This document shows, piece after piece, positions 16,165 through 64,000 of a stretch of DNA of 64,000 nt (position 1 is the first letter of the stretch; every line of letters begins with the position of its first letter). The position numbers and the translations under genes are program-made. The notes under the pieces were generated by a model. It was given only the letters and a program-made list of their open reading frames with translations, did no database searches and was not told where the DNA came from. The stretch is taken from assembly GCF_021347895.1 (NCBI RefSeq), contig NC_067122.1, positions 41,731,082-41,795,081 on the forward strand, read 5' to 3'. The stretch is from Acanthochromis polyacanthus. Lineage: Eukaryota; Chordata; Actinopteri; Pomacentridae.

Positions 16165-17301
<1,137 letters not shown>

Positions 17302-20539: not shown

Positions 20540-20550
20540 AATAATAAAAA

Positions 20551-22868
20551 TTAAAGCTGCAAGCAGCGTTGAACGGGTCCTTGCATCCTTGCTGGTCGGC
20601 GACCCCAAGCATTTCCACCAGGCAATGCTACAACTGAGAGTGTATTTAGGCCCATGAATGTCACAAAGGCTGGATTCTGAGCACACAGGTCAAATTTCAG
20701 GCAGATTGGAGCATATACAGGCTATTAATGCAGCACTTTGTGTCCATCCACCACGTGGCGCTATCTCTTTGACTGTATAGTGGTCTATGAAACTCATCAG
20801 GACTGGACTCTGATCAAACATGTAAAGTTTGAGGCAGATTGCAGCATGTATAGGGGATTTACACAAGATGTCCTGCTTCATGGCGTAACATTAAAGTTCA
20901 GTTGGCCGCCATGGCCACGCCCTTTGAGTTTTGTGAACAATTTTCACAAATATTCAACCTGAAGGCGTGGAGTACATATTTTCCCAAATTCAGGTGTTTT
21001 GGGGGTATTGCCTGTGAGAAATGAATTGTTGAAAATGATCAAAAACACCAAAAATCTGATATTTAATTCAAAATAGCGGACATCCTGTTGGGTTTAGAGA
21101 ATGACTCCAAGAGACTTTTTTGTTTGCACTGACGTGCTACGTATGCATGCCAAATTTCATAGTCATAGGTGAAACTCCCCGTGGAGGCTATTTTTTAAAA
21201 TGCTTTCGGGGCGCTATGGTACATGCTGTGAATGTATTTTGGCCAATAAATGTGCTCAGGACAGGACTGTATTTAATCATGTGAGGTCTGAGGTAGATTG
21301 GAGCATGCAGAGGATAGTTAGGTAGCACTTGATGTTTCATGGCAAACCATCAAAATTCTGGAGGTCGCCATGTCCACACCCTTTGACTCTGGAAGAATCC
21401 TTTAATAACTTTTGATCAGGAGATCGTGTTGTATTTCCTGGTAAAATTTGAGGTCTGTAGGAGTTAACCCGAGGAGGAGTTCGTTCTCAAAAATTAAAAT
21501 AATAGAGAAAATTTATCCACGTATTTCAAAATGGCAGACTGCCTGTTGAGTTTAGGGGATGGCTCCAAGAGGCTTTTTTGTGTGTGCTGGTGTGCTCTAT
21601 AGGCCTCCCAAATTTTGTGGATCTAGGTGAAACGTGCTGCCGGGGCTGTTTGTTAAACATACTGTAGGGGCCGCTATAGCACATGCCCTGTAGAGATGCA
21701 TACAGTGTTATTCCTTGAGACGACTGTGATGTGTGTGTAAATTTTAGTGAGCTGTTGAACATTCTAAGCCTGTCAAAAAGTACTTTGTTTGTCACAACAA
21801 CAACACGTTGCCACGACAACAGCATTTTATCAAATGCTAAAATTTTCACACTTTGGCATTGTCAGGGGGTGAAGACTGAGCTGACCAGTTTCCAGAAGGA
21901 TATGACAAAGTTTGAGGCAATAATGCACGCAAATGTAATTTCTAAACTACTTGTTACCAATAGGTGTCGCTATGACTTTTTCTAAATTTTTCAGTGTGGA
22001 TGTCCTCAAACTGGTTCTGGTGTCCAGCACATGAAGTTTGGGGCAGATAGGATCCTTTGCAGCTGAGATATGAACACTTCAATTTTCATGGCGAAACATC
22101 AAACTTTGCCGTCCCGCAGACACGCCTTTTTATGACACGTCACCATTTTTTCTGTGATTCATCATCAATGTGTTCAGGCTTCTGTCGCCACATCTGAGGT
22201 GACTCTGAGCAACAGGCTAAGAATAGTACATGAAAGTGTAAAAAATGTCAAATTCTTGATACCACAAGGTGGCGCTGTGACTGTGAATGAATCTTGCTAT
22301 ATGGATGTCATCGAGGCAGGTCTGTGATCATACATGTAAAGTTTCATTCAGATTGGAGCATGTTCAGGAGAGTTAGACAGCATTTCCTGTTTCATGGCGA
22401 AAGATCAAATTTCGACAGGCCGTCATGACCACACCCTTTAACTATGGAGGAAGGTTTTAATAACTTTTTCTCAGGACGGCCTGCTGTATGTATTGGCAAA
22501 ATTTCAGATCGCTAAGACTTTCCCCCTCGGAGGAGTCCATCACAGATTTTGTACAGTTAACGCATGATGGCGCACTTCCTGTTGGGTTTAGAGCATGGCT
22601 GTAATTGACTTTTTTGTGTTTCCTGATGTGTTGCATATGCCTCCCAAATTTTGTAGGTCTAGACCAAATTCCTTCTGAGTTGGCCTAATACCACTTTTTA
22701 AAATTTTGTAGGGGGCGCTATGGAGCCATTTTTGCACACATCTCCACATGCCCTACAAAATATGAAAATTTTCGCCAGTTTTGATGTGTGTGCAAATTTT
22801 CATGATTTTTTGAGCATGTTTAGGCCCTCAAAAATGCAGTTGTTCTGAGAGACAAATAATAATAATAA
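20551..22868 (+). repeat. Macrosatellite unit 1 (leftmost)
   Basis: 2318 bp, subfamily A. It is diverged from the right-hand units. Its first CTCF-like core at 20748-20763 reads CCACCACGTGGCGCTA, which creates a CACGTG E-box. Confidence 0.93.
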
Positions 22869-23654
22869 TTAAAGCTGCAAGCAGCGTTGAACGGGTCTTC
22901 GCATCCTTGCTTGTCAGCAACCTCAAGCATCTCCACCAGGCAATGATACGACAGAGTGTATTTAGGCCCATGAATGTCACAAAGGCTTGATTCTGAGCAC
23001 ATAGGTCAAATTTCAGGCAGATTGGAGCATGTACAGGCTATTAATTCAGCACTTTGTGTCCATCCACCAGGTGGCGCTATCTGTGTGACTGTATATTGGT
23101 CTATGAAACTCATCAGGACTGGACTCTGATCAAACATGTAAAGTTTGAGGCAGATTGCAGCATGTACAGGGGATTTACACAAGACGTCCTGCTTCATGGC
23201 ATAACATTAAAGTTCCGTTGGCCGCCATGGCCACGCCCTTTGAGTTTTGTGAACAATTTTCACAAATATCCAACCTGAAGGCATGTTGTATATATTGTCC
23301 AAAATTCAGGTGTTTTGGAGTTATTGCCTGTGACAAATGAATTGTTGAAAATGACCAAAACTACCAAAAATCTGACATTTAATTCAAAATGGCGGACTTC
23401 CTGTTGGTTTTAGAGAATGATTCCAAGAGACTTTTTTGTTCGTACTGATGTGCTACATATGCATGCCAAATTTCATAGTCATAGGTGAAAGTGTCAGGGA
23501 CGAGCGGGTGGACCCAAGCAGAGAGCCACACTACCAAGGCAGGCTGGAATGATAGTGTTTATTGTTGGAGGTGAAATGGTGGCTTGATGGGGGGAAAATC
23601 CAGGGTACAGGAGCGGCTGGTGTAGTAGGGGGTCTTGGCCAGAAACGGGGGGTC

Positions 23655-23762
23655 CAGGCAGGGGCAGAAGGGGTCCAGGAAGGAATGGGGGTCCAGGCAG
23701 GAGCGGGGGTCCAGGCAGGAGTGGGGAGGTCCAGGCAGGAGTGGGGAGGTCCAGGCAGGGAA
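23655..23762. repeat. GTCCAGGCAGGAGTGGGGAG minisatellite
   Basis: About six degenerate copies of a 17-21-bp unit within the 852-bp element. Confidence 0.8.
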
Positions 23763-24035
23763 AAACCGACGATGACTGGGCTGGGGAGAGCCGGAGGGGA
23801 AGGAGGACGGCAGGGATCCCAGACAGCTGACCTAGGTGAGGAGGCAGGAGAAAACAGCGTAAGAAAACAAAGACAGGAACTCAACAGAAAATGCAGAAGG
23901 CTAGAGAGTGAACTGAACTGCGTGGTCTTAGTTCAACAATCTGGCAGGGAGTGGAAGGATGAGCCAGTTCTTATTGCAGGGGTGATAATCAGCGTGATGT
24001 CTCTCAGCTGTCCGGGAGCCGGGGAGGTGGTTGAT

Positions 24036-24080
24036 TGCCTGAGTGGAGTCAGCTGAGAAGCGAGACTCCACTCAGGCACC
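24036..24080. repeat. Inverted repeat inside the 852-bp element
   Basis: TGCCTGAGTGGAGTC pairs with GACTCCACTCAGGCA across a short AGCTGAGAAGCGA loop, giving a 15-bp stem. Confidence 0.8.
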
Positions 24081-24116
24081 GAGCTGTAGGGGGAGAGACA
24101 AGGCAGAGGAGTGGAT

Positions 24117-24264
24117 GGGAGACAGGCAAGACAGACAGGGCAGAGGAGCGGATGGGAGACAGGCAAGACAGACAGGGCAGAGGAGCGGATGGGAGACAGG
24201 CAAGACAGACAGGGCAGGGGAACGGATGGGAGAAAGGCAAGACAGACAGGGCAGGGGAACAGGA
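24117..24264. repeat. 37-bp minisatellite, about four copies
   Basis: Copies start at 24117, 24154, 24191 and 24228 (GGGAGACAGGCAAGACAGAC core), exactly 37 bp apart. The last copy is degenerate. Confidence 0.9.
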
Positions 24265-25324
24265 GAGGGAGGAAGAACCAGATGGGAAAAGGGTATTGGG
24301 GAGGTCAGGTGGGAAGGATGGGGGTGAGAAGGGAGCCGTGACAGAAAGTCTGTGTGGAGGCTATTTTTTAAATGCTTTAGGGGGCGCTATGGTACATGCT
24401 GTGAATGTATTTTGGCCTGTAAATGTGATCAGGACAGGACTGTGTTTAATCATGTGAGGTCTGAGGTAGATTGGAGCATGCAGAGGATAGTTAGGTAGCA
24501 CTTGATGTTTCATGGCGAACCATCAAAATTCTGGAGGTCGCCATGTCCACACCCTTTGACTCTGGAAGAATCTTTTAATAACTTTTGATCATAACATCGT
24601 GTTGGATACCCTGCTAAAATTTGAGGTCTCTTGGAGTTAACCCCGAGGAGGAGTTCGCTCTCAAAAATTAAAAAAATAGAGAAAATTTATCCATGTAATT
24701 TAAAATGGCGGACTTCCTGTTGAGTTTAGGGGATGACTCCCAGAGTCTTTTTTGTGTGTCCTGGTGTGCTCTATAGGCCTCCCAAATTTTGTGGATGGAG
24801 GTGAAACATGCTGCCGGGGCTGTTTATTAAACATACTGTAGGGGGCGCTATAGCACATGCCCTGTAGAGATGCATACAGTGTTATTCCTTGAGACGACTG
24901 TGATGTGTGTGTAAATTTTGGTGAACTGTTGAACATTCTAAGCCTGTCAAAAAGTACTTTGTCACAAAAACAACACGTTGCCACGGCAACAGCATTTCAT
25001 CAAATATCAAAATCTTCACACTGTGGTATTGTCTGGGGGTGAAGAATCAGCTGACCAATTTTCAGAATGATATGAAAAAGTTTGGAGCAATGGTGTGTGC
25101 AAATGTAATTTCTAAACTTCTTGTTACCAATAGGTGGCGCTATGACTTTTTCTAAAATTTTCACCATGGATGTCCTCACACTGGTCCTGGTGTCCAGCAC
25201 ATGAAGTTTGGGGCAGATATGATGAGGATTTGCTGAGATATAAGCATTTTAGAAGTCATGGCAAGACATTGAAATTCGCCGTGCCGCCACAGACACGCCT
25301 TTTGATGACACATCACCATTTTAA

Positions 25325-25858
25325 CCCTTTAAGCTTCAGTGTACCGCCGGCGGTACACCTACTAATTTGCATAGGAATTTCAAGAATGTCCGACGGGTGC
25401 AAACACGATTATACAAACACTATACACCGATGGAAAGCTTAGATTCTCATGAATCCGCCGGTATAAACCACTTTCAGATGCGATTACCACAGCAGGTGAG
25501 AAAAACACATTTGTCCGACAAAAACAAATATTCATCCATCCGTTCTCTATACACGGCTTCAAAGCACACAGCGCGACTCACATTTCCGGGTATATTATTA
25601 CACACAAAAAAAAAGATTCCACAAAAAACGGCCATAATCCAACCTTTTACATCAGATGACACAAGCCAGTAAACTATTTTGTCCAAAACATGTCCTGAAG
25701 TCGGTATAAAATCCCCGAATCGGTCGTTTTCAAGGAAATGCACCTCCCGATGCGCGTCCAATATTCCCCGTATTTTTCGGAATTTTTTTTATTTAAAAAT
25801 AGAATATTAGCGATTTTTTTGTACTGAAAACGGCTGGAATTGACTGAAGCTTAAAGGG
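25325..25858. mobile_element. piggyBac-type MITE, 534 bp
   Basis: TTAA at 25321-25324 and 25859-25862 flank an element that starts CCCTTTAAGCTTCAG and ends CTGAAGCTTAAAGGG, a perfect 15-bp terminal inverted repeat. TTAA target and CCC-type ends are piggyBac hallmarks. It has no transposase. Removing it restores the satellite sequence (CACCATT TTAA CTGTGATTCATC). Confidence 0.9.
25339..25358. repeat. Perfect 20-bp palindrome in the MITE
   Basis: GTGTACCGCCGGCGGTACAC is its own reverse complement. It lies 14 bases inside the left end of the MITE. Confidence 0.95.
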
Positions 25859-28263
25859 TTAACTGTGATTCATCATCAACATGTTTAGGTTTATATCACC
25901 ACATTTGAGGTGAATCTGAACAAGACAAAGAATAATACATCAAAGTGTAAAAAATGACATTTTCTGTTGCCAGCAGGTGGCGCTCTGACTGTGAATGGAT
26001 TTCATCATATGGATGTGATCAGGGCAAGAATCTGATCATACATATAAGATTTCAGGCAGATTGGAGCATGTTCAGGGCATTTACACAGCACTTGAAATTT
26101 CATGGCGAAGGATCAAAATTCCACAGACCGCCACGGACACGCCCTTTGACTTTGGAAAAAGATTTTAATAACTTTTGGTCATTAAGGCCTCCTGTATGTA
26201 CCGGTCAAATTTGAGGCGAATTGGAGTTTCCCCCTGGGAGGAGTTCGCTCTGGAAAAAAATGAAAAATGGGCTAGATCTGACAATCAACACAAAATAGCT
26301 CACTTCCTGTTGGGTTTGGAATATGGCTGTCACTGACTTTTTTGCTCAGTCTGATGTGCTGCATATGTGTACCAAATTTGATATCTGTAGGTGAAACATG
26401 ATGGCCGTGGGAAAGTGTAGGGGGCGCTATGGAGCCATTTTGCTATACACCTCCACAATTCCTTTAAAATATGAAATTTGTCACCAGTCCTGATGTGTGT
26501 ACAAATTTTCATGAGTTTTTAAGCATGTTTAGGCCCTCAAAAATGCAGTTGTTCTGAGAGACAAATAATAATAATAATTAAAGCTGCAAGCAGCGTTGAA
26601 CGGGTCCTCGCATACTTGCTGGTCAGCGACCCCAGGTATTTCCACCAGACAATGCTGCGACTGAGAGCGTATTTCGGCCCATGAATGTCACAACGGCTTG
26701 ATTGTGAGCACACAGGTCAAATTTCAGGCAGATTGGAGCATGTACAGGCTATTAATTCAGCACTTTGTATCCATCCACCAGGTGGCGCTATCTCTGTGAC
26801 TGTATGTTGGTCTATGAAACTCATCAGGACTGGACTCTGATCAAACATGTAAAGTTTGAGGCAGATTGCAGCATGTACAGGGGATTTACACAAGACGTCC
26901 TGCTTCATGGCATAACATTAAAGTTCCGTTGGCTGCCATGGCCACGCCCTTTGAGTTTTGTGAACAATTTCACAAATATCCAACCTGAAGGCGTGTTTTA
27001 TGTATTGTCCCAAATTCAGGTGTTTTGGAGTTATTGCCTGTGACAAATGAATTGTTGAAAATGACCAAAACTACCAAAAATCTGACATTTAATTCAATAT
27101 GGTCGACTTCCTGTTGGTTTAGAGAATGATTCCAAGAGACTTTTTTGTTTGCACTGACGTGCTCCATATGCATGCAAAATTTCATAGTCATAGGTGAAAG
27201 TCTGTGTGGAGGCTATTTTTTAAATTCTTTTAGGGGGCGCTATGACACATACTGTGGATGTATTTTGGCCTGTAAATGTGATCAGGACAGGACTGTGTTT
27301 AATCATGTGAGGTCTGAGGTAGATTGGAGCATGCAGAGGATAGTTAGGTAGCACTTGATGTTTCATGGCGAACCATCAAAATTCTGGAGGTCGCCATGTC
27401 CACACCCTTTGACTCTGCAAGAATCTTTTAATAACTTTTGATCATAGCATCGTGTCTTATATCCTGGCAAAATTTCAGCTCTCTAGACCTTAACCCCGAG
27501 GAGGAGTTCGCTCTCAAAAATGAAAAAATACAGAAATTTTATCCACTTAATTCAAAATGGCGGACTTCCTGTTGAGTTTAGGGGATGGCTCCAAGAGGCT
27601 TTTTTGTGTGTCCTGGTGTGCTCTATAGGCCTCCCAAATTTTGTGGATGTAGGTGAAACATGCTGCGGGGGCTGTTTATTAAACATACTGCAGGGGGCGC
27701 TATAGCACATGCCCTGCAGAGATGCATACAGTGTTATTCCTTGAGACGACTGTGATGTGTGTGTAAATTTTGGTGAGCTGTTGAACATTCTAAGCCTGTC
27801 AAAAAGTACTTTGTTTGTCACAAAAATAACGCGTTGCCACGGCAACAGCATTTCATCAAATATCAAAATCTTCACACTGTGGTATTGTCTGGGGGTGAAG
27901 AATTAGCTGACCAATTTTCAGAATGATATGACAAAGTTTGGAGCAATGATGTGTGCAAATGTAATTTCTAAACTGCTTGTTACCAAGAGGTGGTGCTATG
28001 ACTTTTTCTAAAGTTTTCAGTGTGGATGTCCTCAAACTGGTTCTGGTGTCCAGCACATGAAGTTTGGGGCAGATAGGATCCTTTGCAGCTGAGATATGAA
28101 CACTTCAATTTTCATGGCGAAACATGAAAGTTTGCCGTCCCGCCACAGACACGCCTTTTCATCACACGTCACCATTTTTTCTGTGCTTCATCATCAATGT
28201 GTTCAGGCTTATGTCACAACATCTGAGGTGAATCTGAGCAACAGGCTAAGAATAGTACATGAA

Positions 28264-28683
28264 AGTCTAAAAAATGTCAAATTCTTGATACCACAAGGTG
28301 GCGCTGTGACTGTGAATGAATCTTGCTGTATGGATGTCATCGAGGCAGGTCTGTGATCATACATGTAAAGTTTCATTCAGATCGGAGCATGTTCAGGAGA
28401 GTTAGACAGCATTTCCTGTTTCATGGCGAAGGATCAAATTTCGACAGGCCGCCACGACCACACCCTTTAACTAAGTCTAAAAAATGTCAAATTCTTGATA
28501 CCACAAGGTGGCGCTGTGACTGTGAATGAATCTTGCTGTATGGATGTCATCGAGGCAGGTCTGTGATCATACATGTAAAGTTTCATTCAGATCGGAGCAT
28601 GTTCAGGAGAGTTAGACAGCATTTCCTGTTTCATGGCGAAGGATCAAATTTCGACAGGCCGCCACGACCACACCCTTTAACTA
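28264..28683 (+). repeat. 210-bp exact tandem duplication within unit 3
   Basis: The segment starting AGTCTAAAAAATGTC is present at 28264-28473 and again at 28474-28683 with no differences that I can see. It contains one CTCF-like core (CCACAAGGTGGCGCTG), so this unit has seven cores instead of six. Confidence 0.92.
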
Positions 28684-29093: not shown

Positions 29094-29135
<42 letters not shown>

Positions 29136-29353
29136 CCGTAGGGTTCCAATAGGGTCCTACGGCACCGTTGGTGCCTTGGACAGCCGGTGCCCTTGCACCG
29201 CCTGTCCTCGGCACCTCGGTGCTCGGCACCTCGGTGCTCGGACCCTAATAATAAACCGTAGGGTTCCGATAGGGTCCTACGGCACCGTTGGTGCCTTGGA
29301 CAGCCGGTGCCCTTGCACCGCCTGTCCTCGGCACCTCGGTGCTCGGACCCTAA
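29094..29353 (+). repeat. (AAT)n linker plus two long hairpin minisatellite copies
   Basis: About 40 bases of AAT are followed by two long-form copies of a sequence running from AACCGTAGGGTTCC to CTCGGACCCTAA. The first copy has an extra GGCACCTCGGTGCTC. See the minisatellite finding for structure. Confidence 0.9.
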
Positions 29354-31684: not shown

Positions 31685-34003
31685 TTAAAGCTGCGAGCAG
31701 CGTTGAACGGGTCCTCGCATACTTCCTGGTCGGCGACCCCAAGCATCTCCACCAGGCAAAGCTACGACTGAGAGTGTATTTAGGCTCATGAATGTCACAA
31801 AGGCTGGATTCTGAGCACACAGGTCAAATTTCAGGCAGATTTGAGCATGTACAGGCTATTTATGCAGCACTTTGTGTCCATCCACCAGGTGGCGCTATCT
31901 CTGTGACTGTATGTTGGTCTATGAAACTCATCAGGACTGGACTCTGATCAAACATGTAAAGTTTGAGGCGGATTGCAGTGTGTACAGGGGATTTACACAA
32001 GACGTCCTGCTTCATGGCGTAACATTAAACTTCAGCTGCCCGCCATGGCCACGCCCTTTGAGTTTTATGAACAATTTTCGCAAATATGCAACCTGAAGAC
32101 GTGTCTTATATATTTTCCCAAATTCAGATGTTTTGGAGTTATTGCCTGTGAGAAATGAATTTTTGAAAATGACCAAAAACACCAAAAATCTGACATTTAA
32201 TTAAAAATGGCCGACTTTCTGTTGGGTTTAGAGAATGACTCCAAGAGACTTTTTTGTTTGCACTGACATGCAACATTTGCATGCCAAATTTCATAGTCCA
32301 AGCTGAAAGTCTCTGTGCAGTCTATTTTTTAAATGCTGTAGGGGGCGCGATGGTACATGCTGTGAATGTATTTTAGTCTATAAATGTGATCAGGACAGGA
32401 CTGTGTTTAATCATGTGAAGTCTGAGGTAGATTGGAGCATGCAGAGGATAGTAAGATACCACTTGATGTTTCATGGCGAACCATCAAAATTCTGGAGGTC
32501 GCCATGTCCACACCCTTTGACTCTGGAAGAATCTTTTAATAACTTTTGATCATAACATCGTGTTGTATACCCTGGTAAAATTTGAGGTCTCTGGGATTCA
32601 ACCCCTCGGAGGAGTTCGCTCTCAAAAATAAAAAAAATAGAGAAAATTTATCCACTTAATTCAAAATGGCGGACTTCCTGTTGAGTTTAGGGGATGGCTC
32701 CAAGAGGCTTTTTTGTGCATCGTGATGTGCTCTATAGGTCTCCCAAATTTTGTGGATGTCGGTGAAACATGCTGCCGGGGCTGTTTATTAAACATACTGT
32801 AGGGGGCGCTATAGCACATGCCCTGCAGAGATGCATACAGTGTTATTCCTTGAGGGGACAGTGATGTGTGTGTAAATTTTAGTGAGCTGTTGAGCATTCT
32901 AAGCCTGTCAAAAAGTACTTTGTTTGTCACAAAAACAACGCGTTGGCACGGCAACAGCATTTCATCAAATATCAAAATCTTCACACTGTGGTATTGTCTG
33001 GGGGTGAAGAATCAGCTGACCAATTTTCAGAATGATATGACAAAGTTTGGAGCAATGATGTGTGCAAATGTAATTTCTAAACTGCTTGTTACCAAGAGGT
33101 GGCGCTATGACTTTTTCTAAATTTTTCAGTATGGATGTCCTCAAAGTGGTTCTGGTGTCCCGCACATGAAGTTTGGGGCAGATAGGATCCTTTGCAGCTG
33201 AGATATGAACACTTCAATTTTCATGGCGAAACATCAAACTTTGCCGTCCCGCCACAGACACGCCTTTTCAACACACGTCACCATTTTTTCTGTGCTTCAT
33301 CATCAATGTGTTCAGGCTTATGTCACCACATCTGAGGTGAATCTGAGCAACAGGCTAAGAATAGTACATGAAAGTGTAAAAAATGTCAAATTCTTGATAC
33401 CACAAGGTGGCGCTGTGACTGTGAATGAATCTTGCTATTTGAATGTCATCGTGGCAGGTCTGTGATCATACATGTAAAGTTTCATTCAGATCGGAGCATG
33501 TTCAGGAGAGTTAGACAGCATTTCCTGTTTCATGGCGAAGGATCAAATTTCGACAGGCCGCCACGACCACACCCTTTAACTATGGAGGAAGATTTTGATA
33601 ACTTTTTCTCAGGAAGGTCTGCTGTATGTACTGGCAAAATTTCAGATCGCTCAGACTTTTCCCCTAGGAGGAGTTCATCATAGATTTTGTACAGTTAACG
33701 CATGATGGCGCACTTCCTGTTGGGTGTAGAGCATGGCTGTGATTGACTTTTTTGTGTTTCCTGATGTGCTGCATATGCCTCCCAAATTTTGTAGGTCTAG
33801 ATCAAATTCCCTCTGAGTTGGCCTAATACCACTTTTTAAAATTTTGTAGGGGGCGCTATGGAGCCATTTTTACACACACCTCCACATGCCCTACAAAATA
33901 TGAAATTTTTCGCCAGTTTTGATGTGTGTGCAAATTTTCATGACTTTTCGAGCATGTTTAGGCCCTCAAAAATGCAGTTGTTTTGGCAGAATAATAATAA
34001 TAA
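31685..34003 (+). repeat. Macrosatellite unit 5
   Basis: 2319 bp, subfamily A. First CTCF-like core 31882-31897. The X-box is changed to GTTGGCACGGCAAC. The right linker is of the TTTTGGCAGAATAAT type instead of the CTGAGAGACAAATAAT type. Confidence 0.95.
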
Positions 34004-36326
34004 TTAAAGCTGCGAGCAGCATTGAACGGGTCCTCGCATCCTTGCTGGTCAGCGACCCCAAGCATGTCCACCAGGCAATGCTGCGACAAAGTGTATTTAG
34101 GCTCATGGATGTCACAAAGGCTGGATTCTGAGCACACAGGTCAAATTTCAGGCAGATTGGATTATGTACAGGCTATTTATGCAGCACTTTCTGTCCATCC
34201 ACCAGGTGGCACTATGTCTGTGACTGTATAGTGGTCTATGAAACTCATCAGGACTGGACTCTGATCAAACATGTTAAGTTTGAGGCAGATTGCAGCATGT
34301 ACAGGGGATTTACATAAGACGTCCTGCTTCATGGCGTAACATTAAAGTTCAGTTGGCCGCCATGGCCATGCCCTTTGAGTTTTGTGAACAATTTTCACAA
34401 ATACTCAACCTGAAGGCGTGTAGTATATATTGTCCCAATTTCAGATGTTTTGGAGCTATTGCCTGTGAGAAATGAATTGTTGAAAATGATCAAAAACACC
34501 AAAAATCTGACATTTAATTCAAAATAGCGGACTTCCTGTTGGGTTTAGAGAATGACTCCAAGAGACTTTTTTTTTGCACTGACGTGTTACATATGCATGC
34601 CAAATTTCATAGTCATAGGTGAAAGTCTGTGTGGAGGCTATTTTTAAAAATTCTGTAGGGGGCGCTATGACACATACTGTGGATGTATTTTGGCCTATAA
34701 ATGTGATCAGGACAGGACTGTGTTCAATCATGTGAGGTCTGAGGTAGACTGGAGCATGCAGAGGATAGTTAGATAGCACTTGATGTTTCATGGCAAACCA
34801 TCAAAATTCTGGAGGTCGCCATGTCCACACCCTTTAACTCTGGAAGAATCTTTTAATAACTTTTGATCATAACATTGTGTTGTATATCCTGGCAAAATTT
34901 CAGGTCTCTAGCAGTTAAACCCCAGGAGGAGTTCGCTCTCAAAAATTAAAAAAATAGAGAAAATTTGTCCACTTAATTCAAAATGGCGGACTTCCTGTTG
35001 GGTTTAGGGGATGGCTCCAAGAGGCTTTTTTGTGCGTTCTGATGTGCTCTATATGTCTCCCAAATTTTGAGGATGTAGGTGAAACGTGCTGCCGGGGCTG
35101 TTTATTAAACATACTGTAGGGGGCGCAATAGCACATGCCCTGCAGAGATGCATACATTCTTATTCCTGGAGACGACAGTGATGTGTGTGTAAATTTTGGT
35201 GAGCTGTTGAACATTCTAAGCCTGTCAAAAAGTACTTTGTTTGTCACAAAAACAACGCGTTGCCACGGCAACAGCATTTCATCAAATATCAAAATCTTCA
35301 CACTGTGGTATTGTCTGGGGGTGAAGAATCAGCTGACCAATTTTCAGAATGATATGACAAAGTTTGGAGCAATGATGTGTGCAAATGTAATTTCTAAACT
35401 GCTTGTTACCAAGAGGTGGCGCTATGACTTTTTCTAAATTTTTCAGTGTGGATGTCCTCAAACTGGTTCTGGTGTCCAGCACATGAAGTTTGGGGCAGAT
35501 AGGATCCTTTGCAGCTGAGATATGAACACTTCAATTTTCATGGCGAAACATCAAACTTTGCCGTCCCGCCACAGACACGCCTTTTCATCACACGTCACCA
35601 TTTTTTCTGTGCTTCATCATCAATGTGTTCAGGCTTATGTCACAACATCTGAGGTGAATCTGAGCAACAGGCTAAGAATAGTACATGAAAGTCTAAAAAA
35701 TGTCAAATTCTTGATACCACAAGGTGGCGCTGTGACTGTGAATGAATCTTGCTGTATGGATGTCATCGAGGCAGGTCTGTGATCATACATGTAAAGTTTC
35801 ATTCAGATCGGAGCATGTTCAGGAGAGTTAGACAGCATTTCCTGTTTCATGGCGAAGGATCAAATTTCGACAGGCCGCCACGACCACACCCTTTAACTAT
35901 GGAGGAAGATTTTGATAACTTTTTCTCAGGAAGGTCTGCTGTATGTACTGGCAAAATTTCAGATCGCTCAGACTTTTCCCCGAGGAGGAGTTCATCATAG
36001 ATTTTGTACAGTTAACGCATGATGGCGCACTTCCTGTTGGGTGTAGAGCATGGCTGTGATTGACTTTTTTGTGTTTCCTGATGTGCTGCATATGCCTCCC
36101 AAATTTTTTAGCTCTCGGCCAAATTCCCTCCGAGTTGGCCTAATACCACTTTTTAAAATTTTGTAGGGGGCGCTATGGAGCCATTTTGCCACACACCTCC
36201 ACATGCCCTAAAAATAATGAAATTTTTCGCCAGTTCTGATGTTTGTGCAAATTTTCGTGACTTTTCGAGCATGTTCAGGCCCTGAAAAATGCAGTTGTTT
36301 TGGCAGAATAATAATAATAATAATAA
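34004..36326 (+). repeat. Macrosatellite unit 6
   Basis: 2323 bp, subfamily A. The first core (34199-34214) reads CCACCAGGTGGCACTA, so the CpG is lost. Confidence 0.95.
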
Positions 36327-38756
36327 TTAAAGCTGCGAGCAGCGTTGAACGGGTCCTCGCATACTTCCTGGTCGGCGACCCCAAGCATCTCCACCAGGCA
36401 AAGCTACGACTGAGAGTGTATTTAGGCCCATGAATGTCACAAAGGCTGGATTCTGAGCACACAGGTCAAATTTCAGGCAGATTTGAGCATGTACAGGCTA
36501 TTTATGCAGCACTTTGTGTCCATCCACCAGGTGGCGCTATCTCTGTGACTGTATGTTGGTCTATGAAACTCATCAGGACTGGACTCTGATCAAACATGTA
36601 AAGTTTGAGGCGGATTGCAGCGTGTACAGGGGATTTACACAAGACGTCCTGCTTCATGGCGTAACATTAAACTTCAGCTGCCCGCCATGGCCACGCCCTT
36701 GGAGTTTTATGAACAATTTTCGCAAATATGCAAGAAGTGTCTTATATATTTTCCCAAATTCAGATGTTTTGGAGCTATTGCCTGTGAGAAATGAATTGTT
36801 GAAAATGATCAAAAACACCAAAAATCTGACATTTAATTCAAAATAGCGAACTTCCTGTTGGGTTTAGAGAATGACTCCAAGAGACTTTTTTGTTTGCACT
36901 GACGTGTTACATATGCATGCCAAATTTCATAGTCATAGGTGAAAGTCTCTGTGGAGGCTATTTTTAAAAATTCTGTAGGTGGCGCTATGACACATACTGT
37001 GGATGTATTTTGGCCCATAAATGTGATCAGGACAGGACTGTGTTACATCATGTGAGGTCTGAGGTAGACTGGAGCATGCAGAGGATAGTTAGATAGCACT
37101 TGATGTTTCATGGCAAACCATCAAAATTCTGGAGGTCGCCATGTCCACACCCTTTAACTCTGGAAGAATCTTTTAATAACTTTTGATCATAACATTGTGT
37201 TGTATATCCTGGCAAAATTTCAGGTCTCAAGCAGTTAAACCCTAGGAGGAGTTCGCTCTCAAAAATTAAAAAATAGAGAAAATTTGTCCACTTAATTCAA
37301 AATGGCGGACTTCCTGTTGGGTTTAGGGGATGGCTCCAAGAGGCTTTTTTGTGCGTTCTGATGTGCTCTATATGTCTCCCAAAGTTTGAGGATGTAGGTG
37401 AAACGTGCTGCCGGGGCTGTTTATTAAACATACTGTAGGGGGCGCTATAGCACATGCCCTGCAGAGATGTATACATTCTTATTCCTGGAGACGACAGTGA
37501 TGTGTGTGTAAATTTTGGTGAGCTGTTGAGCATTCTAAGCCTGTCAAAAAGTACTTTGTTTGTCACAAAAACAACGCGTTGCCACGGCAACAGCATTTCA
37601 TCAAATATCAAAATCTTCACACTGTGGTATTGTCTGGGGGTGAAGAATCAGCTGACCAATTTTCAGAATGATATGACAAAGTTTGGAGCAATGATGTGTG
37701 CAAATGTAATTTCTAAACTGCTTGTTACCAAGAGGTGGCGCTATGACTTTTTCTAAATTTTTCAGTGTGGATGTCCTCAAACTGGTTCTGGTGTCCAGCA
37801 CATGAAGTTTGGGGCAGATAGGATCCTTTGCAGCTGAGATATGAACACTTCAATTTTCATGGTGAAACATCAAACTTTCCCGTCCCGCCACAGACACGCC
37901 TTTTCATCACACGTCACCATTTTTTCTGTGCTTCATCATCAATGTGTTCAGGCTTATGTCACAACATCTGAGGTGAATCTGAGCAACAGGCTAAGAATAG
38001 TACATGAAAGTGTAAAAAATGTCAAATTCTTGATACCACAAGGTGGCGCTGTGACTGTGAATGAATCTTGCTGTATGGATGTCATCGAGGCAGGTCTGTG
38101 ATCATACATGTAAAGTTTCATTCAGATCAGAGCATGTTCAGGAGAGTTAGACAGCATTTCCTGTTTCATGGCGAAGGATCAAATTTCGACAGGCCGCCAC
38201 GACCACACCCTTTAACTATGGAGGAAGATTTTGATAACTTTTTCTCAGGAAGGTCTGCTGTATGTACTGGCAAAATTTCAGATCGCTCAGACTTTTCCCC
38301 GAGGAGGAGTTCATCATAGATTTTGTACAGTTAACGCATGATGGCGCACTTCCTGTTGGGTGTAGAGCATGGCTGTGATTGACTTTTTTGTGTTTCCTGA
38401 TGTGCTGCATATGCCTCCCAAATTATTTAGCTCTCGGCCAAATTCCCTCCGAGTTGGCCTAATACCACTTTTTAAAATTTTGTAGGGGGCGCTATGGAGC
38501 CATTTTGCCACACACCTCCACATGCCCTAAAAAATATGAAATTTTTCGCCAGTTCTGATGTGTGTGCAAATTTTCATGACTTTTCGAGCATGTTCAGGCC
38601 CTGAAAAATGCAGTTGTTTTGGCAGAATAATAATAATAATAAAAAACCCTAAGGTTCCAATAGGGTCCTTCGGCACCGTTGGTGCTCGGACCCTAATAAT
38701 AAAAAACCCTAAGGTTCCAATAGGGTCCTTCGGCACCGTTGGTGCTCGGACCCTAA
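36327..38756 (+). repeat. Macrosatellite unit 7 with short-form minisatellite
   Basis: 2430 bp, subfamily A. First core 36524-36539. Two 60-bp short-form hairpin minisatellite copies (38641-38700 and 38701-38756) sit at the right junction. Confidence 0.94.
38641..38756 (+). repeat. Short-form hairpin minisatellite, two copies
   Basis: Exact 60-bp period. Each copy runs from AAAACCCTAAGGTTCC through GGCACCGTTGGTGC to CTCGGACCCTAAT. Confidence 0.93.
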
Positions 38757-41057: not shown

Positions 41058-41569
41058 AAAAATAATAATAATAATAATAATAATAAAAAACCCTAAGGTT
41101 CCAATAGGGTCCTTCGGCACCGTTGGTGCTCGGACCCTAATAATAATAATAATAATAATAAACCGTAGGGTTTCAATAGGGTCCTACGGCACCGTTGGTG
41201 CCTTGTTAGGGTCCGAGCACCGGCACCTCGGTGCTCGGACCCTAATAATAAACCGTAGGGTTTCAATAGGGTCCTATGGCACCGTTGGTGCCTTGGACAG
41301 CCGGTGCCCTTGCACCGCCTGTCCTCGGCACCTCGGTGCTCGGACCCTAATAAACCGTAGGGTTCCAATAGGGTCCTACGGCACCGTTGGTGCCTTGGAC
41401 AGCCGGTGCCCTTGCACCGCCTGTCCTCGGCACCTTGGTGCTCGGACCCTAATAATAATAAACCATAGGGTTTCAATAGGGTCCTCCGGCACCGTTGGTG
41501 CCTTGGACAGCCGGTGCCCTTGCACAGCCTGTCCTCGGCACCTCGGTGCTCGGACCCTAATAATAATAA
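41058..41569 (+). repeat. (AAT)n plus five hairpin minisatellite copies
   Basis: One short-form copy is followed by four long-form or rearranged copies separated by AAT. It is the largest minisatellite block in the array. One copy is rearranged into a fold-back (41206-41245). Confidence 0.9.
41206..41245. repeat. Perfect 17-bp inverted repeat (hairpin)
   Basis: TTAGGGTCCGAGCACCG (41206-41222) pairs with CGGTGCTCGGACCCTAA (41229-41245) across a GCACCT loop. It arose by inversion of a minisatellite end. Confidence 0.95.
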
Positions 41570-52242: not shown

Positions 52243-52342
52243 NNNNNNNNNNNNNNNNNNNNNNNNNNNNNNNNNNNNNNNNNNNNNNNNNNNNNNNNNN
52301 NNNNNNNNNNNNNNNNNNNNNNNNNNNNNNNNNNNNNNNNNN
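52243..52342. other. Assembly gap of exactly 100 N
   Basis: The left side stops at offset 1395 of a unit and the right side resumes at about offset 101 of the next. At least about 1 kb must therefore be missing, and possibly any number of additional whole units. The 100-N length is a placeholder. Confidence 0.99.
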
Positions 52343-54541: not shown

Positions 54542-54574
<33 letters not shown>

Positions 54575-54780
54575 CCGTAGGGTTTCAATAGGGTCCTACG
54601 GCACCGTTGGTGCCTTGGACAGCCGGTGCCCTTGCACCGCCTGTCCTCGGCACCTCGGTGCTCGGACCCTAATAATAATAAACCGTAGGGTTTCAATAGG
54701 GTCCTACGGCACCGTTGGTGCCTTGGACAGCCGGTGCCCTTGCACCGCCTGTCCTCGGCACCTCGGTGCTCGGACCCTAA
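52343..54780 (+). repeat. Macrosatellite unit 14, start lost in the gap
   Basis: Subfamily A. Its first core (52436-52453) is a hybrid, GGTGGCACGCTATC, with two extra bases as if the CAC and CGC variants were joined. Two long hairpin minisatellite copies lie at the right end (54573-54778). Confidence 0.92.
54544..54780 (+). repeat. (AAT)n plus two long hairpin minisatellite copies
   Basis: AAT tract at 54544-54572, then two nearly identical long-form copies of about 104 bp. Confidence 0.92.
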
Positions 54781-57086
54781 TTAAAGCTGCGAGCAGCATT
54801 GAACGGGTCCTCGCATCCTTGCTGGTCGGCGACCCCAAGCATGTCCACCAGGCAATGCTGCGACAAAGTGTATTTAGGCTCATGGATGTAACGAGGACTG
54901 GATTCTGAGCACTCAGGTCAAATTTCAGACAGATTGGAGCATGTACAGACTATTTTTGCAGCACTTTGTGTCCATCCACCAGGTGGCACTATGTCTGTGA
55001 CTGTATAGTGGTCTATGAAACTCATCAGGACTGGACTCTGATCAAACATGTAAAGTTTGAGGTAGATTACAGCATGTACAGGGGATTTACACAAGACGTC
55101 CTGCTTCATGGCGTAACATTAAAGTTCAGTTGGCCGCCATGGCCATGCCCTTTGAGTTTTGTGAACAATTTTCGCAAATATGCAACCTGAAGGCGTTTCT
55201 TATATATTTTCCCAAATTCAGGTGTTTTGGAGTTATTGCCAGTGACAAATGAATTGTTGAAAATGACCAAAAACACCAAAAATCTGACATTTAATTCAAA
55301 ATGGCTGACTTTCTGTTGTGTTTAGAGAATGACTCCAAGAGACTTTTTTGCTTGCACTGATGTGCTACATATGCATGCCAAATTTCATAGTCATAGGTGA
55401 AAGTCTGTGTGGAGGCTATTTTTTAAATTCTTTTAGGGGGCGCTATGGTAGATGCTGTGAATGTATTTTGGCCTATAAATGTGATCAGGACAGGACTGTG
55501 TTTAATCATGTGAGGTCTGAGGTAGATTGGAGCATGCAGAGGATAGTTAGGTAGCACTTGATGTTTCATGGCGAACCATCAAAATTCTGGAGGTCGCCAT
55601 GTCCACACCCTTTGACTCTGCAAGAATCCTTTGATAACTTTTGATCATAACATCGTGTTGTATATCCTGGCAAAATTTCAGCTCTCTAGACCTTAACCCC
55701 GAGGAGGAGTTCGCTCTCAAAAATGAAAAAAATACAGAAATTTTATCCACTTAATTCAAAATGGCGGACTTCCTGTTGAGTTTAGGGGATGGCTCCAAGA
55801 GGCTTTTTGTGTGTCCTGGTGTGCTCTATAGGCCTCCCAAATTTTGTGGATGTAGGTGAAACATGCTGCCGGGGCTGTTTATTAAACATACTGCAGGGGG
55901 CGCTATAGCACATGCCCTGCAGAGATGCATACAGTGTTATTCCTTGAGACGACTGTGATGTGTGTGTAAATTTTGGTGAGCTGTTGAACATTCTAAGCCT
56001 GTCAAAAAGTACTTTGTTTGTCACAAAAACAACGCGTTGCCACGGCAACAGCATTTCATCAAATATCAAAATCTTCACACTGTGGTATTGTCTGGGGGTG
56101 AAGAATCAGCTGACCAATTTTCAGAATGATATGACAAAGTTTGGAGCAATGATGTGTGCAAATGTAATTTCTAAACTGCTTGTTACCAAGAGGTGGCGCT
56201 ATGACTTTTTCTAAATTTTTCAGTGTGGATGTCCTCAAACTGGTTCTGGTGTCCAGCACATGAAGTTTGGGGCAGATAGGATCCTTTGCAGCTGAGATAT
56301 GAACACTTCAATTTTCATGGCGAAACATCAAACTTTGCCGTCCCGCCACAGACACGCCTTTTCATCACACGTCACCATTTTTTCTGTGCTTCATCATCAA
56401 TGTGTTCAGGCTTATGTCACAACATCTGAGGTGAATCTGAGCAACAGGCTAAGAATAGTACATGAAAGTCTAAAAAATGTCAAATTCTTGATACCACAAG
56501 GTGGCGCTGTGACTGTGAATGAATCTTGCTGTATGGATGTCATCGAGGCAGGTCTGTGATCATACATGTAAAGTTTCATTCAGATCGGAGCATGTTCAGG
56601 AGAGTTAGACAGCATTTCCTGTTTCATGGCGAAGGATCAAATTTCGACAGGCCGCCACGACCACACCCTTTAACTATGGAGGAAGATTTTGATAACTTTT
56701 TCTCAGGAAGGTCTGCTGTATGTACTGGCAAAATTTCAGATCGCTCAGACTTTTCCCCTAGGAGGAGTTCATCATAGATTTTGTACAGTTAACGCATGAT
56801 GGCGCACTTCCTGTTGGGTGTAGAGCATGGCTGTGATTGACTTTTTTGTGTTTCCTGATGTGCTGCATATGCCTCCCAAATTTTTTAGCTCTCGGCCAAA
56901 TTCCCTCCGAGTTGGCCTAATACCACTTTTTAAAATTTTGTAGGGGGCGCTATGGAGCCATTTTGTCATACACTACCACAATTCCTTTAGAATATAAAAT
57001 TTTTCACCAGTTCTGGTGTGTGTACAAATTTTCATGAGTTTTTGAGCATGTTTAGGCCCTCAAAAATGCAGTTGTTCTGAGAGACA

Positions 57087-57131
<45 letters not shown>

Positions 57132-57349
57132 CCGTAGGGTTCCAATAGGGTCCTACGGCACCGTTGGTGCCTTGGACAGCCGGTGCCCTTGCACCGCCTG
57201 TCCTCGGCACCTCGGTGCTCGGACCCTAATAATAATAATAATAAACCGTAGGGTTTCAATAGGGTCCTACGGCACCGTTGGTGCCTTGGACAGCCGGTGC
57301 CCTTGCACCGCCTGTCCTCGGCACCTCGGTGCTCGGACCCTAATAATAA
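54781..57349 (+). repeat. Macrosatellite unit 15 with junction minisatellite
   Basis: 2569 bp, subfamily A. First core 54976-54991 has GGCAC. Two long-form minisatellite copies lie at the right end. Confidence 0.95.
57088..57349 (+). repeat. (AAT)n plus two long hairpin minisatellite copies
   Basis: The longest AAT run in the window (about 43 bases) is followed by two long-form copies separated by more AAT. Confidence 0.92.
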
Positions 57350-59671
57350 TTAAAGCTGCGAGCAGCATTGAACGGGTCCTCGCATCCTTGCTGGTCGGCG
57401 ACCCCAAGCATGTCCACCAGGCAATGCTGCGACAAAGTGTATTTAGGCTCATGGATGTAACGAGGACTGGATTCTGAGCACTCAGGTCAAATTTCAGACA
57501 GATTGGAGCATGTACAGACTATTTTTGCAGCACTTTGTGTCCATCCACCAGGTGGCACTATGTCTGTGACTGTATAGTGGTCTATGAAACTCATCAGGAC
57601 TGGACTCTGATCAAACATGTAAAGTTTGAGGTAGATTACAGCATGTACAGGGGATTTACACAAGACGTCCTGCTTCATGGCGTAACATTAAAGTTCAGTT
57701 GGCCGCCATGGCCATGCCCTTTGAGTTTTGTGAACAATTTTCGCAAATATGCAACCTGAAGGCGTTTCTTATATATTTTCCCAAATTCAGGTGTTTTGGA
57801 GTTATTGCCAGTGACAAATGAATTGTTGAAAATGACCAAAAACACCAAAAATCTGACATTTAATTCAAAATGGCTGACTTTCTGTTGTGTTTAGAGAATG
57901 ACTCCAAGAGACTTTTTTGCTTGCACTGATGTGCTACATATGCATGCCAAATTTCATAGTCATAGGTGAAAGTCTGTGTGGAGGCTATTTTTTAAATTCT
58001 TTTAGGGGGCGCTATGACACATACTGTGGATGTATTTTGGCCTGTAAATGTGATCAGGACAGGACTGTGTTTAATCATGTGAGGTCTGAGGTAGATTGGA
58101 GCATGCAGAGGATAGTTAGGTAGCACTTGATGTTTCATGGCGAACCATCAAAATTCTGGAGGTCGCCATGTCCACACCCTTTGACTCTGCAAGAATCCTT
58201 TGATAACTTTTGATCATAACATCGTGTTGTATATCCTGGCAAAATTTCAGCTCTCTAGACCTTAACCCCGAGGAGGAGTTCGCTCTCAAAAATGAAAAAA
58301 ATACAGAAATTTTATCCACTTAATTCAAAATGGCGGACTTCCTGTTGAGTTTAGGGGATGGCTCCAAGAGGCTTTTTTGTGTGTCCTGGTGTGCTCTATA
58401 GGCCTCCCAAATTTTGTGGATGTAGGTGAAACATGCTGCCGGGGCTGTTTATTAAACATACTGCAGGGGGCGCTATAGCACATGCCCTGCAGAGATGCAT
58501 ACAGTGTTATTCCTTGAGACGACTGTGATGTGTGTGTAAATTTTGGTGAGCTGTTGAACATTCTAAGCCTGTCAAAAAGTACTTTGTTTGTCACAAAAAC
58601 AACGCGTTGCCACGGCAACAGCATTTCATCAAATATCAAAATCTTCACACTGTGGTATTGTCTGGGGGTGAAGAATTAGCTGACCAATTTTCAGAATGAT
58701 ATGACAAAGTTTGGAGCAATGATGTGTGCAAATGTAATTTCTAAACTGCTTGTTACCAAGAGGTGGCGCTATGACTTTTTCTAAATTTTTCAGTGTGGAT
58801 GTCCTCAAACTGGTTCTGGTGTCCAGCACATGAAGTTTGGGGCAGATAGGATCCTTTGCAGCTGAGATATGAACACTTCAATTTTCATGGCGAAACATCA
58901 AACTTTGCCGTCCCGCCACAGACACGCCTTTTCATCACACGTCACCATTTTTTCTGTGCTTCATCATCAATGTGTTCAGGCTTATGTCACAACATCTGAG
59001 GTGAATCTGAGCAACAGGCTAAGAATAGTACATGAAAGTCTAAAAAATGTCAAATTCTTGATACCACAAGGTGGCGCTGTGACTGTGAATGAATCTTGCT
59101 GTATGGATGTCATCGAGGCAGGTCTGTGATCATACATGTAAAGTTTCATTCAGATCGGAGCATGTTCAGGAGAGTTAGACAGCATTTCCTGTTTCATGGC
59201 GAAGGATCAAATTTCGACAGGCCGCCACGACCACACCCTTTAACTATGGAGGAAGATTTTGATAACTTTTTCTCAGGAAGGTCTGCTGTATGTACTGGCA
59301 AAATTTCAGATCGCTCAGACTTTTCCCCTAGGAGGAGTTCATCATAGATTTTGTACAGTTAACGCATGATGGCGCACTTCCTGTTGGGTGTAGAGCATGG
59401 CTGTGATTGACTTTTTTGTGTTTCCTGATGTGCTGCATATGCCTCCCAAATTTTTTAGCTCTCGGCCAAATTCCCTCCGAGTTGGCCTAATACCACTTTT
59501 TAAAATTTTGTAGGGGCGCTATGGAGCCATTTTGCACACACCTCCACATGCCCTAAAAATATGAAATTTTTCGCCAGTTCTGATGTGTGTGCAAATTTTC
59601 ATGACTTTTGAGCATGTTTAGGCCCTCAAAAATGCAGTTGTTCTGAGAGACAATAATAATAATAATAATAA
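57350..59671 (+). repeat. Macrosatellite unit 16
   Basis: 2322 bp, subfamily A, nearly identical to units 15 and 17 over long stretches. First core 57545-57560 has GGCAC. The last 150 bases carry several single-base deletions. Confidence 0.95.
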
Positions 59672-61399: not shown

Positions 61400-61826
61400 T
61401 GACTGTGAATGAATCTTGCTGTATGGATGTCATCGAGGCAGGTCTGTGATCATACATGTAAAGTTTCATTCAGATCGGAGCATGTTCAGGAGAGTTAGAC
61501 AGCATTTCCTGTTTCATGGCGAAGGATCAAATTTCGACAGGCCGCCACGACCACACCCTTTAACTATGGAGGAAGATTTTGATAACTTTTTCTCAGGAAG
61601 GTCTGCTGTATGTACTGGCAAAATTTCAGATCGCTCAGACTTTTCCCCTAGGAGGAGTTCATCATAGATTTTGTACAGTTAACGCATGATGGCGCACTTC
61701 CTGTTGGGTGTAGAGCATGGCTGTGATTGACTTTTTTGTGTTTCCTGATGTGCTGCATATGCCTCCCAAATTTTTTAGCTCTCGGCCAAATTCCCTCCGA
61801 GTTGGCCTAATACCACTTTTTAAAAT

Positions 61827-61842
61827 TTTGTAGGGGGCGCTA
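61827..61842 (+). promoter_or_regulatory. CTCF-like core 6 of the reference unit
   Basis: TTTGTAGGGGGCGCTA. The 3' half is exact and the 5' half divergent. Confidence 0.35.
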
Positions 61843-61963
61843 TGGAGCCATTTTGTCATACACTACCACAATTCCTTAGAAATATAAATTTTTCACCAGT
61901 TCTGATGTGTGTACAAATTTTCATGAGTTTTTGAGCATGTTTAGGCCCTCAAAAATGCAGTTG

Positions 61964-61998
61964 TTCTGAGAGACAAATAATAATAATAATAATAATAA
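61964..61998 (+). repeat. (AAT)n inter-unit linker (example)
   Basis: Each unit ends with GAGAGACAAATAAT or TTGGCAGAATAAT, followed by 3 to about 14 AAT copies, then TTAAAGCTGC of the next unit. The copy number varies at every junction. Confidence 0.93.
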
Positions 61999-64000
61999 TT
62001 AAAGCTGCGAGCAGCGTTGACGGGTCCTCGCATCCTTGCTGGTCGGCGACCCCAAGCATGTCCACCAGGCAATGCTGCGACAAGTGTATTTAGGCCCATG
62101 GATGTACGAGGACTGGATTCTGAGCACACAGGTCAAATTTCAGCAGATTGGAGCATGTACAGGCTATTTTTGCAGCACTTTGTGTCCATCCACCAGGTGG
62201 CACTATCTCTGTGACTGTATAGTGGTCTATGAAACTCATCAGGACTGGACTCTGATCAAACATGTAAAGTTTGAGGTAGATTGCAGCATGTACAGGGGAT
62301 TTACACAAGACGTCCTGCTTCATGGCGTAACATTAAAGTTCAGTTGGCCGCCATGGCCATGCCCTTTGAGTTTTGTGAACAATTTTCGCAAATATGCAAC
62401 CTGAAGGCGTTTCTTATATATTTTCCCAAATTCAGGTGTTTTGGAGTTATTGCCAGTGAGAAATGAATTGTTGAAAATGACCAAAAACACCAAAAATCTG
62501 ACATTTAATTCAAAATGGCTGACTTTCTGTTGGGTTTAGAGAATGACTCCAAGAGACTTTTTTGCTTGCACTGACGTGCTACATATGCATGCCAAATTTC
62601 ATAGTCATAGGTGAAAGTCTGTGTGGAGGCTATTTTTTAAATTCTTTAGGGGGCGCTATGGTACATGCTGTGAATGTATTTTGGCCTATAAATGTGATCA
62701 GGACAGGACTGTGTTTAATCATGTGAGGTCTGAGGTAGATTGGAGCATGCAGAGGATAGTTAGGTAGCACTTGATGTTTCATGGCGAACCATCAAAATTC
62801 TGGAGGTCGCCATGTCCACACCCTTTGACTCTGCAAGAATCTTTTAATAACTTTTGATCATAACATCGTGTTGTATATCCTGGCAAAATTTCAGCTCTCT
62901 AGACCTTAACCCCGAGGAGGAGTTCGCTCTCAAAAATGAAAAAAATACAGAAATTTTATCCACTTAATTCAAAATGGCGGACTTCCTGTTGAGTTTAGGG
63001 GATGGCTCCAAGAGGCTTTTTTGTGTGTCCTGGTGTGCTCTATAGGCCTCCCAAATTTTGTGGATGTAGGTGAAACATGCTGCCGGGGCTGTTTATTAAA
63101 CATACTGCAGGGGGCGCTATAGCACATGCCCTGCAGAGATGCATACAGTGTTATTCCTTGAGACGACTGTGATGTGTGTGTAAATTTTGGTGAGCTGTTG
63201 AACATTCTAAGCCTGTCAAAAAGTACTTTGTTTGTCACAAAAACAACGCGTTGCCACGGCAACAGCATTTCATCAAATATCAAAATCTTCACACTGTGGT
63301 ATTGTCTGGGGGTGAAGAATCAGCTGACCAATTTTCAGAATGATATGACAAAGTTTGGAGCAATGATGTGTGCAAATGTAATTTCTAAACTGCTTGTTAC
63401 CAAGAGGTGGCGCTATGACTTTTTCTAAATTTTTCAGTGTGGATGTCCTCAAACTGGTTCTGGTGTCCAGCACATGAAGTTTGGGGCAGATAGGATCCTT
63501 TGCAGCTGAGATATGAACACTTCAATTTTCATGGCGAAACATCAAACTTTGCCGTCCCGCCACAGACACGCCTTTTCATCACACGTCACCATTTTTTCTG
63601 TGCTTCATCATCAATGTGTTCAGGCTTATGTCACAACATCTGAGGTGAATCTGAGCAACAGGCTAAGAATAGTACATGAAAGTCTAAAAAATGTCAAATT
63701 CTTGATACCACAAGGTGGCGCTGTGACTGTGAATGAATCTTGCTGTATGGATGTCATCGAGGCAGGTCTGTGATCATACATGTAAAGTTTCATTCAGATC
63801 GGAGCATGTTCAGGAGAGTTAGACAGCATTTCCTGTTTCATGGCGAAGGATCAAATTTCGACAGGCCGCCACGACCACACCCTTTAACTATGGAGGAAGA
63901 TTTTGATAACTTTTTCTCAGGAAGGTCTGCTGTATGTACTGGCAAAATTTCAGATCGCTCAGACTTTTCCCCTAGGAGGAGTTCATCATAGATTTTGTAC
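61999..64000 (+). repeat. Macrosatellite unit 18, cut by the window end
   Basis: The first 2002 bp, subfamily A. Single-base deletions cluster at 61870-62145, and the rest is nearly identical to unit 15. First core 62190-62205 has GGCAC. Confidence 0.95.

Follow-up and report, generated by a model that had tools for sequence, protein, structure and literature searches.

Does CTCF bind a fish macrosatellite in which CTCF-type sites follow one another in a single direction, and does that direction serve the place where the array lies? The question is raised by a 64,000-nucleotide stretch of Acanthochromis polyacanthus DNA, referred to here as the window (C10:41,731,082-41,795,081; the genome searched comprises 957 Mb in 81 contigs), which from about position 20,553 through its end (64000) consists of units of about 2.32 kb arranged head to tail on the plus strand. 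According to the convergent rule, the orientation of a CTCF site sets which side of it stops cohesin, and an earlier note on this sequence had proposed that the array could act as a one-way barrier to loop extrusion or as a boundary. In our view it is fairly probable that the array is one of a genome-wide macrosatellite family, the units of which are putative CTCF-binding platforms, and CTCF probably binds the repeat. A barrier as a designed feature is not sustained, since same-facing cores arise automatically by head-to-tail duplication and the family has loci on both strands; the direction at the C10 locus would be a by-product, because strand varies between loci and the units come from a shared pool.

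CTCF-type sites and the make-up of the unit

The window contains 17 anchored unit starts and one more unit that lacks its start because of a 100-N assembly gap (52243..52342), which agrees with the 18 units counted earlier. The assembled array, composed of 23 unit pieces, extends past the window to window coordinate 75,005, and since a second 100-N gap begins at 75,020, this extent is a lower bound on array length. For the scan a reconstruction of the CTCF matrix MA0139.1 was used; this is also the CTCF matrix named for zebrafish (PMC9077971). From position 20,540 onward the plus strand gave 78 matches at ≥8 bits (9.9 in shuffled sequence), 76 at ≥10 bits (4.5), 70 at ≥12 bits (2.0), 65 at ≥14 bits (0.76), 58 at ≥16 bits (0.22) and 40 at ≥18 bits (0.06), the minus strand giving 0; two of the 78 (24080 and 24256) sit inside a foreign insertion in unit U02. 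The comparison with shuffled sequence that the earlier note had called for is therefore clear, with 65 plus-strand and 0 minus-strand matches at ≥14 bits in the window against 0.76. Exact GG(G/T)GGCGCTA cores also number 65 in the window (0.02 in shuffles), every one on the plus strand as had been stated, but the estimate of roughly 100 cores was too high: matches at ≥14 bits come to 65 within the window and to 82 over the entire assembled array (82 plus, 0 minus, in 54.5 kb). Nearby non-array DNA (101 kb) has 2 plus and 3 minus matches at this threshold. A single strong CTCF-type site, ACTCCACTAGGGGGCAGCA (20.2 bits), was also observed at window coordinate 79436 (C10:41810517), 4.4 kb beyond the last assembled base of the array.

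The consensus unit holds six GG(G/T)GGCGCT cores (S1-S6), plus strand throughout, so that the claim of six sites per unit stands for the cores; as CTCF sites only four are strong matches (S1, S3, S4 and S5), while S2 is weak, S6 has no match and the S5 core ends in G or C instead of A. The close CTCF fit claimed for the first site was confirmed, as the S1 16-mer CCACCAGGTGGCGCTA scores 23.4 bits (P ~7e-9 per position). In typical units S1 scores mostly 22-23 bits, S3 15-17, S4 17-20 and S5 20 or 25; S2 passes the 8-bit threshold in just 7 units, where it scores 10.4-12.7 bits, and no unit has an S6 (TTTTGTAGGGGGCGCTA) that does so. The representative complete unit U05 (31687..34005, plus strand, 96% identical to the unit consensus) carries, all on the plus strand, S1 as CATCCACCAGGTGGCGCTA (31879..31897, 23.4 bits), the weak S2 core (32332..32350, 10.4 bits), S3 (32793..32811, 15.5 bits), S4 (33089..33107, 17.4 bits, 19.7 in other units), S5 (33397..33415, 19.8 bits) and the S6 core GGGGGCGCTA (33849..33858), which is without the CTCF 5' half and has no matrix match. 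A second form of S5, TTGCCAGCAGGTGGCGCTC, scores 24.6 bits and is found at 25967, 40464, 45601 and 47921.

The six cores split the consensus unit into six modules that are 36-67% identical, and the best-conserved 12-mer between modules is the CTCF core AGGTGGCGCTAT, with mean identity of 0.92 vs 0.51 overall. This result leans on anchoring, since modules were cut at the cores, which favours alignment there; unanchored alignment brought 9 of the 15 module pairs core-to-core and failed to pair the cores in the other 6. Common to all six modules is AGG(G/T)GGCGCTAT, with G replacing A in S5, and not the CCA half. It may be proposed that an ancestral module of about 300-450 bp with one AGG(G/T)GGCGCTAT core was multiplied into the six-module 2.32-kb higher-order unit, in which four cores form full CTCF sites with YY1-like sites alongside. 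With a reconstructed YY1 matrix, 36 YY1-like sites at ≥14 bits were found in the array part of the window, vs 1.5 in random sequence, and three (15.9-17.1 bits) in the consensus unit. In U05 one of them, CAAAATGGCGGA (32662..32673, plus strand), scores 17.1 bits, and 15 copies of its 12-mer are present in the window's array portion; a second (32203..32214, plus strand) scores 13.9 bits, elsewhere up to 16.4. Conservation of YY1-like sites is mixed (0.5, 0.9, 1.2 and 2.2 changes per position).

Rates of change at the positions read by CTCF

Rates were taken from a tree of 49 units: 15 of the 17 anchored window units (one ending at the gap and one at the window end were left out) and 34 dispersed single-unit loci. 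The latter derive from a sample of 40 loci (L020-L059), of which 39 were mapped and 34 had at least 1300 aligned bases; they had been picked by an exact 30-mer, which favours younger copies. CTCF-read columns are non-CpG positions with matrix information ≥0.85, a cut fixed before the tree-based rates but after the raw per-position divergence was known. At the four strong sites 15 changes fell on 36 such positions (0.42), whereas the rest of the unit, with 2714 changes at 2046 positions (1.33), changes about three times faster, as do the 20 bp flanking the strong sites on either side (208 changes at 158 positions, 1.32). The base-matched expectation was 54 changes, and 20,000 draws never gave a count as low as the 15 seen; among shifts of the same pattern along the unit, 1 of 1811 was as low. 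Strong sites are slower both on terminal (0.22 vs 0.86) and on internal branches (0.19 vs 0.47). The identical columns at weak S2 and S6 took 34 changes at 18 positions (1.89; 24 in S2 and 10 in S6). Information cuts from 0.5 to 1.3 gave 0.39-0.42 at strong and 1.68-2.0 at weak sites, and after dropping any one strong site the rate was 0.37-0.44. Of the six cores, then, it is the four full CTCF sites that change slowly. The CTCF reading is strengthened by this slow change at strong and not at weak sites, by the normal flanks and by the core being the best-conserved block between modules.

Core CpGs were lost less often than other CpGs (3.3 vs 7.2 changes, P = 0.03). In the shallow single-window divergence each core lies only in the lowest 9-21% of windows, although the six taken together rank below all of 1965 shifts save 1. 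A score test on raw substitutions was replaced by a tree version, since shared changes had been counted many times; in the latter S5 (P 0.0004), S3 (P 0.02) and weak S2 (P <0.0002) kept their scores better than expected, and S1, S4 and S6 did not (P 0.12, 0.22 and 0.08).

Several observations weigh against the CTCF reading. Inside the strong sites column weighting is modest: low-information columns change at 1.03 there, but column 7 alone takes 16 of their 33 changes (11 in S3), and without it there are 17 at 28 positions (0.61). The strong sites are slow nearly throughout and not sharply by column. Whole 16-bp blocks are slow at just P = 0.02, the S3 block not being slow, and the 34 dispersed units show a modest excess of raw invariant positions (25/36 vs 1070/2046, P = 0.04). 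The tree score test, passed by weak S2 and not by S1 or S4, does not discriminate, and the low CpG loss, shared by weak S2 and S6 (4 and 1 changes), is not CTCF-specific. The two S5 forms differ in their 16-mer as much as in the surroundings, with no excess identity. Blocks without CTCF sites, containing CACTTCCTGTTGG, TTTCATGGCGAA and ACGCCCTTTGAG (unit consensus 2022-2037, 1842-1857 and 365-380), are equally slow or slower, hence the CTCF sites are not the sole thing kept; CACTTCCTGTTGG we take to be ETS-like. CpG observed/expected is 0.49 in the array, which therefore looks germline-methylated overall. Among eight further loci (L002-L009), which lie outside the 49-unit tree and were used in the earlier raw-divergence comparisons, L005 has an opposite-strand match. 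Finally, the CTCF and YY1 matrices were both reconstructions.

The genome-wide family and competing explanations

A genome-wide search with one 30-mer of the unit gave 152 matches, 56 of them plus and 96 minus, and its reversed control gave 0. Among the 100 of these 152 matches that were listed, all 15 contigs C1-C15 are represented, 88 of 100 lie in the densest 2 Mb of their own contig (or 46 of 56 after merging neighbours) and both strands are present on 12 of the 15 contigs. The exact CCACCAGGTGGCGCTA was found 633 times genome-wide, 494 of them in the family's 23-base context (both controls 0); among the 100 of these 633 that were listed (C1-C4), 62 lie within 6 kb of another on the same strand. 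At ≥14 bits the 40 dispersed loci gave 131 matches on the unit strand and 0 on the opposite strand, with at least one in 39 of 40. Near contig ends the strand varies: plus at the C4 start, minus then plus at the C6 start, minus at the C7 end and plus at the C10 end. In the tree the proximal window units group with units of C3, C7, C9, C11 and interior C10, and the distal ones are 99-100% identical to one another; judged by these groupings, the array is made of units of a shared genome-wide pool together with a recent local expansion. More family arrays were seen near contig starts, at C4:0.52 Mb and C6:0.126-0.477 Mb, those on C6 facing minus at 0.126-0.133 Mb and then plus over 0.22-0.48 Mb. 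Repeat words searched in collections of viral and of genome contigs gave nothing apart from one 18-base match (L001), which is put down to chance. No match came from a full-text literature search with six repeat words, and no published description of the repeat was found in a limited search judged by titles and abstract openings.

The single interior cluster per chromosome suggests candidate pericentromeres. A more ambitious reading would make the family an autosomal genome-wide CTCF satellite and counterpart of DXZ4, present on most chromosomes in one interior region, where the clusters would probably lie next to centromeres, and near some chromosome ends; it would hold most perfect CTCF sites, be selected for CTCF binding, and organise or insulate. 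We regard this reading as doubtful.

Could the sites be relics, inherited with the repeat and now carried by methylated, CTCF-free heterochromatin, as in multimerised D4Z4? The CpG depletion given above fits such a fate, the S1 CpG has been lost in 9 of 18 window copies (kept in the other 9) and in 14 of 23 copies of the assembled array, and D4Z4 arrays lose CTCF as copy number rises (PMC2639723). However, the commonest S1 loss form, GGTGGCACTA, lowers the score only from 23.4 to 22.4 bits, a cost of about 1 bit, and the CTCF-read columns are slow on terminal branches too, that is, after dispersal. We therefore judge relic sites unlikely. Constraint of another origin, in which a different DNA-binding protein uses the core, or the repeat needs it to amplify or retropose, and the CTCF likeness is partly incidental, draws on the AGG(G/T)GGCGCTAT part that all six modules share without the CCA half, on the several unrelated blocks that are slow too and on the low core-CpG loss common to weak cores. 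Yet the CCA columns took only 7 changes at 16 positions in the strong sites, compared with 24 at 8 in the weak ones, and even AGGKGG is slow just at the strong sites (9 at 24 vs 13 at 12). This explanation appears quite improbable.

The last rival holds that selection made the array a one-way barrier to extrusion, or a domain boundary, at the C10 locus. Its 82 same-facing sites in 54.5 kb lie about 41-95 kb from the contig end, the C10 contig ending at 41,846,870, about 41 kb beyond the array, and same-facing tandem arrays act in this way at Dxz4 (PMC5899087). Orientation is, however, automatic in tandem copies (44 of 44 adjacent close CCACCAGGTGGCGCTA pairs were on the same strand, among the matches listed), strand is mixed among family loci, and the array units interleave with units of other contigs in the tree. 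No host gene family matched above its cut-off among the 9 of 67 listed flank frames that were scanned, four of which are transposon or LINE pieces, in a search that did not extend to the neighbouring 40 kb on each side, and the tandem D4Z4 array loses CTCF when multimerised (PMC2639723). Selection for a barrier at this locus is accordingly held to be very unlikely.

Possible mechanism, known systems and neighbouring features

If the family does offer CTCF-binding platforms, CTCF would be bound in at least some cells, the germline or early embryo being the most likely. An unmethylated, bound, plus-facing array would then halt cohesin that approaches from its 3' side, in this case from the 41 kb or more toward the contig end, and the outcome could be a local insulated or stripe-forming block, with DXZ4 as the model. 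Persistence of the family is more likely owed to self-amplification and to an advantage of open chromatin than to a role at the C10 locus: CTCF-bound units might stay open and spread, or clusters of sites might serve chromosome regions generally. To our knowledge, CTCF-laden macrosatellites are otherwise mammalian and lie chiefly on the X. Should the reading hold, a fish family with several CTCF-type sites per unit and, among the matches listed, on all 15 contigs would separate CTCF-macrosatellite architecture from X inactivation. Its arrays vary naturally in direction and in the number of copies, and could show what number of same-facing sites is required for a barrier and whether a repeat gains from CTCF in its own spreading.

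The closest parallel is DXZ4/Dxz4, which also has kb-scale tandem units with CTCF motifs mostly in one direction, YY1 together with CTCF, and a unit body that diverges while the CTCF motifs stay (PMC5899087; PMC6985041), although here such motif conservation is seen within one genome and not between species. The Dxz4 unit is unconserved save for the CTCF motifs and a 13-bp stretch, and its inversion redirects contacts (PMC5899087); paired CTCF and YY1 sites are the part of DXZ4 conserved across mammals (PMC6985041). Differences are also evident: DXZ4 is a single X-linked locus with a CpG-rich unit (PMC6985041) and one CTCF site per human-type unit (PMC8662614), whereas the fish family is spread over many contigs, with GC of about 0.42, CpG observed/expected of 0.49 and four strong sites per unit, and it has no known link to dosage compensation. 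Since it lies on many contigs and its unit is not CpG-rich, the fish repeat is not DXZ4, but by analogy it would work like it if bound. D4Z4 likewise is made of kb-scale units with CTCF sites and is subtelomeric, at about 25-50 kb from the telomere compared with the roughly 41-95 kb from the contig end found here; it binds CTCF less and insulates less with each rise in copy number (PMC2639723). It has a DUX-type frame; in the fish array a homeobox was not found in the 11 of 40 listed frames of ≥100 aa that were scanned. Among fish repeats, zebrafish SINE3-1a and HATN9_DR also supply many CTCF sites, but these are named transposon subfamilies with separate sites (PMC9341505), in contrast to several sites per tandem unit. 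Firre, too, is a bank of repeat-borne CTCF sites, with similar motif numbers in both orientations (PMC5899087), unlike the one-direction fish array.

The array copy lies near the contig end, which is probably a chromosome end; a TTAGGG array was not found at the assembled C10 contig end. Array GC is mostly 0.40-0.45. Unit U02 contains, besides the foreign insertion mentioned above (23493..24343, with TGTCA...TGACA ends and GAAAG on both sides), an insertion with inverted CCCTTTAAGCTTCAG ends between TTAA copies (25323..25862), and in U03 a 210-bp tandem duplication (28263..28683, plus strand) doubles the S5 site (28288 and 28498). A unit junction at 29094..29346 (plus strand) consists of (TAA)n followed by a variable GGCACC-rich minisatellite with a 60-120-bp period; similar junction minisatellites are found at 38634-38757, 41061-41566, 54542-54781 and 57087-57350, and each stops right before a unit start. 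An array frame running through the minisatellite gave HIG_1_N at 24.8 bits, with scores of low-complexity type and no stretch passing, and an Rfam scan of the window gave no match at gathering score.

In the flank upstream of the array a tract at 9671-11601 is GC-rich (1-kb windows up to 0.63) with G-runs and long overlapping open frames on both strands; two frames scanned there had no Pfam match, and the tract is probably low-complexity rather than coding. Genes or remains of Tc1/mariner-type transposases are located at 8400-9366 (minus strand, split into two frames) and at 16165-17301 (plus strand, one 378-codon frame with HTH and DDE domains). A LINE-type element lies in two adjoining frames at 13603-15913 on the minus strand, the longer of which contains a reverse transcriptase domain.

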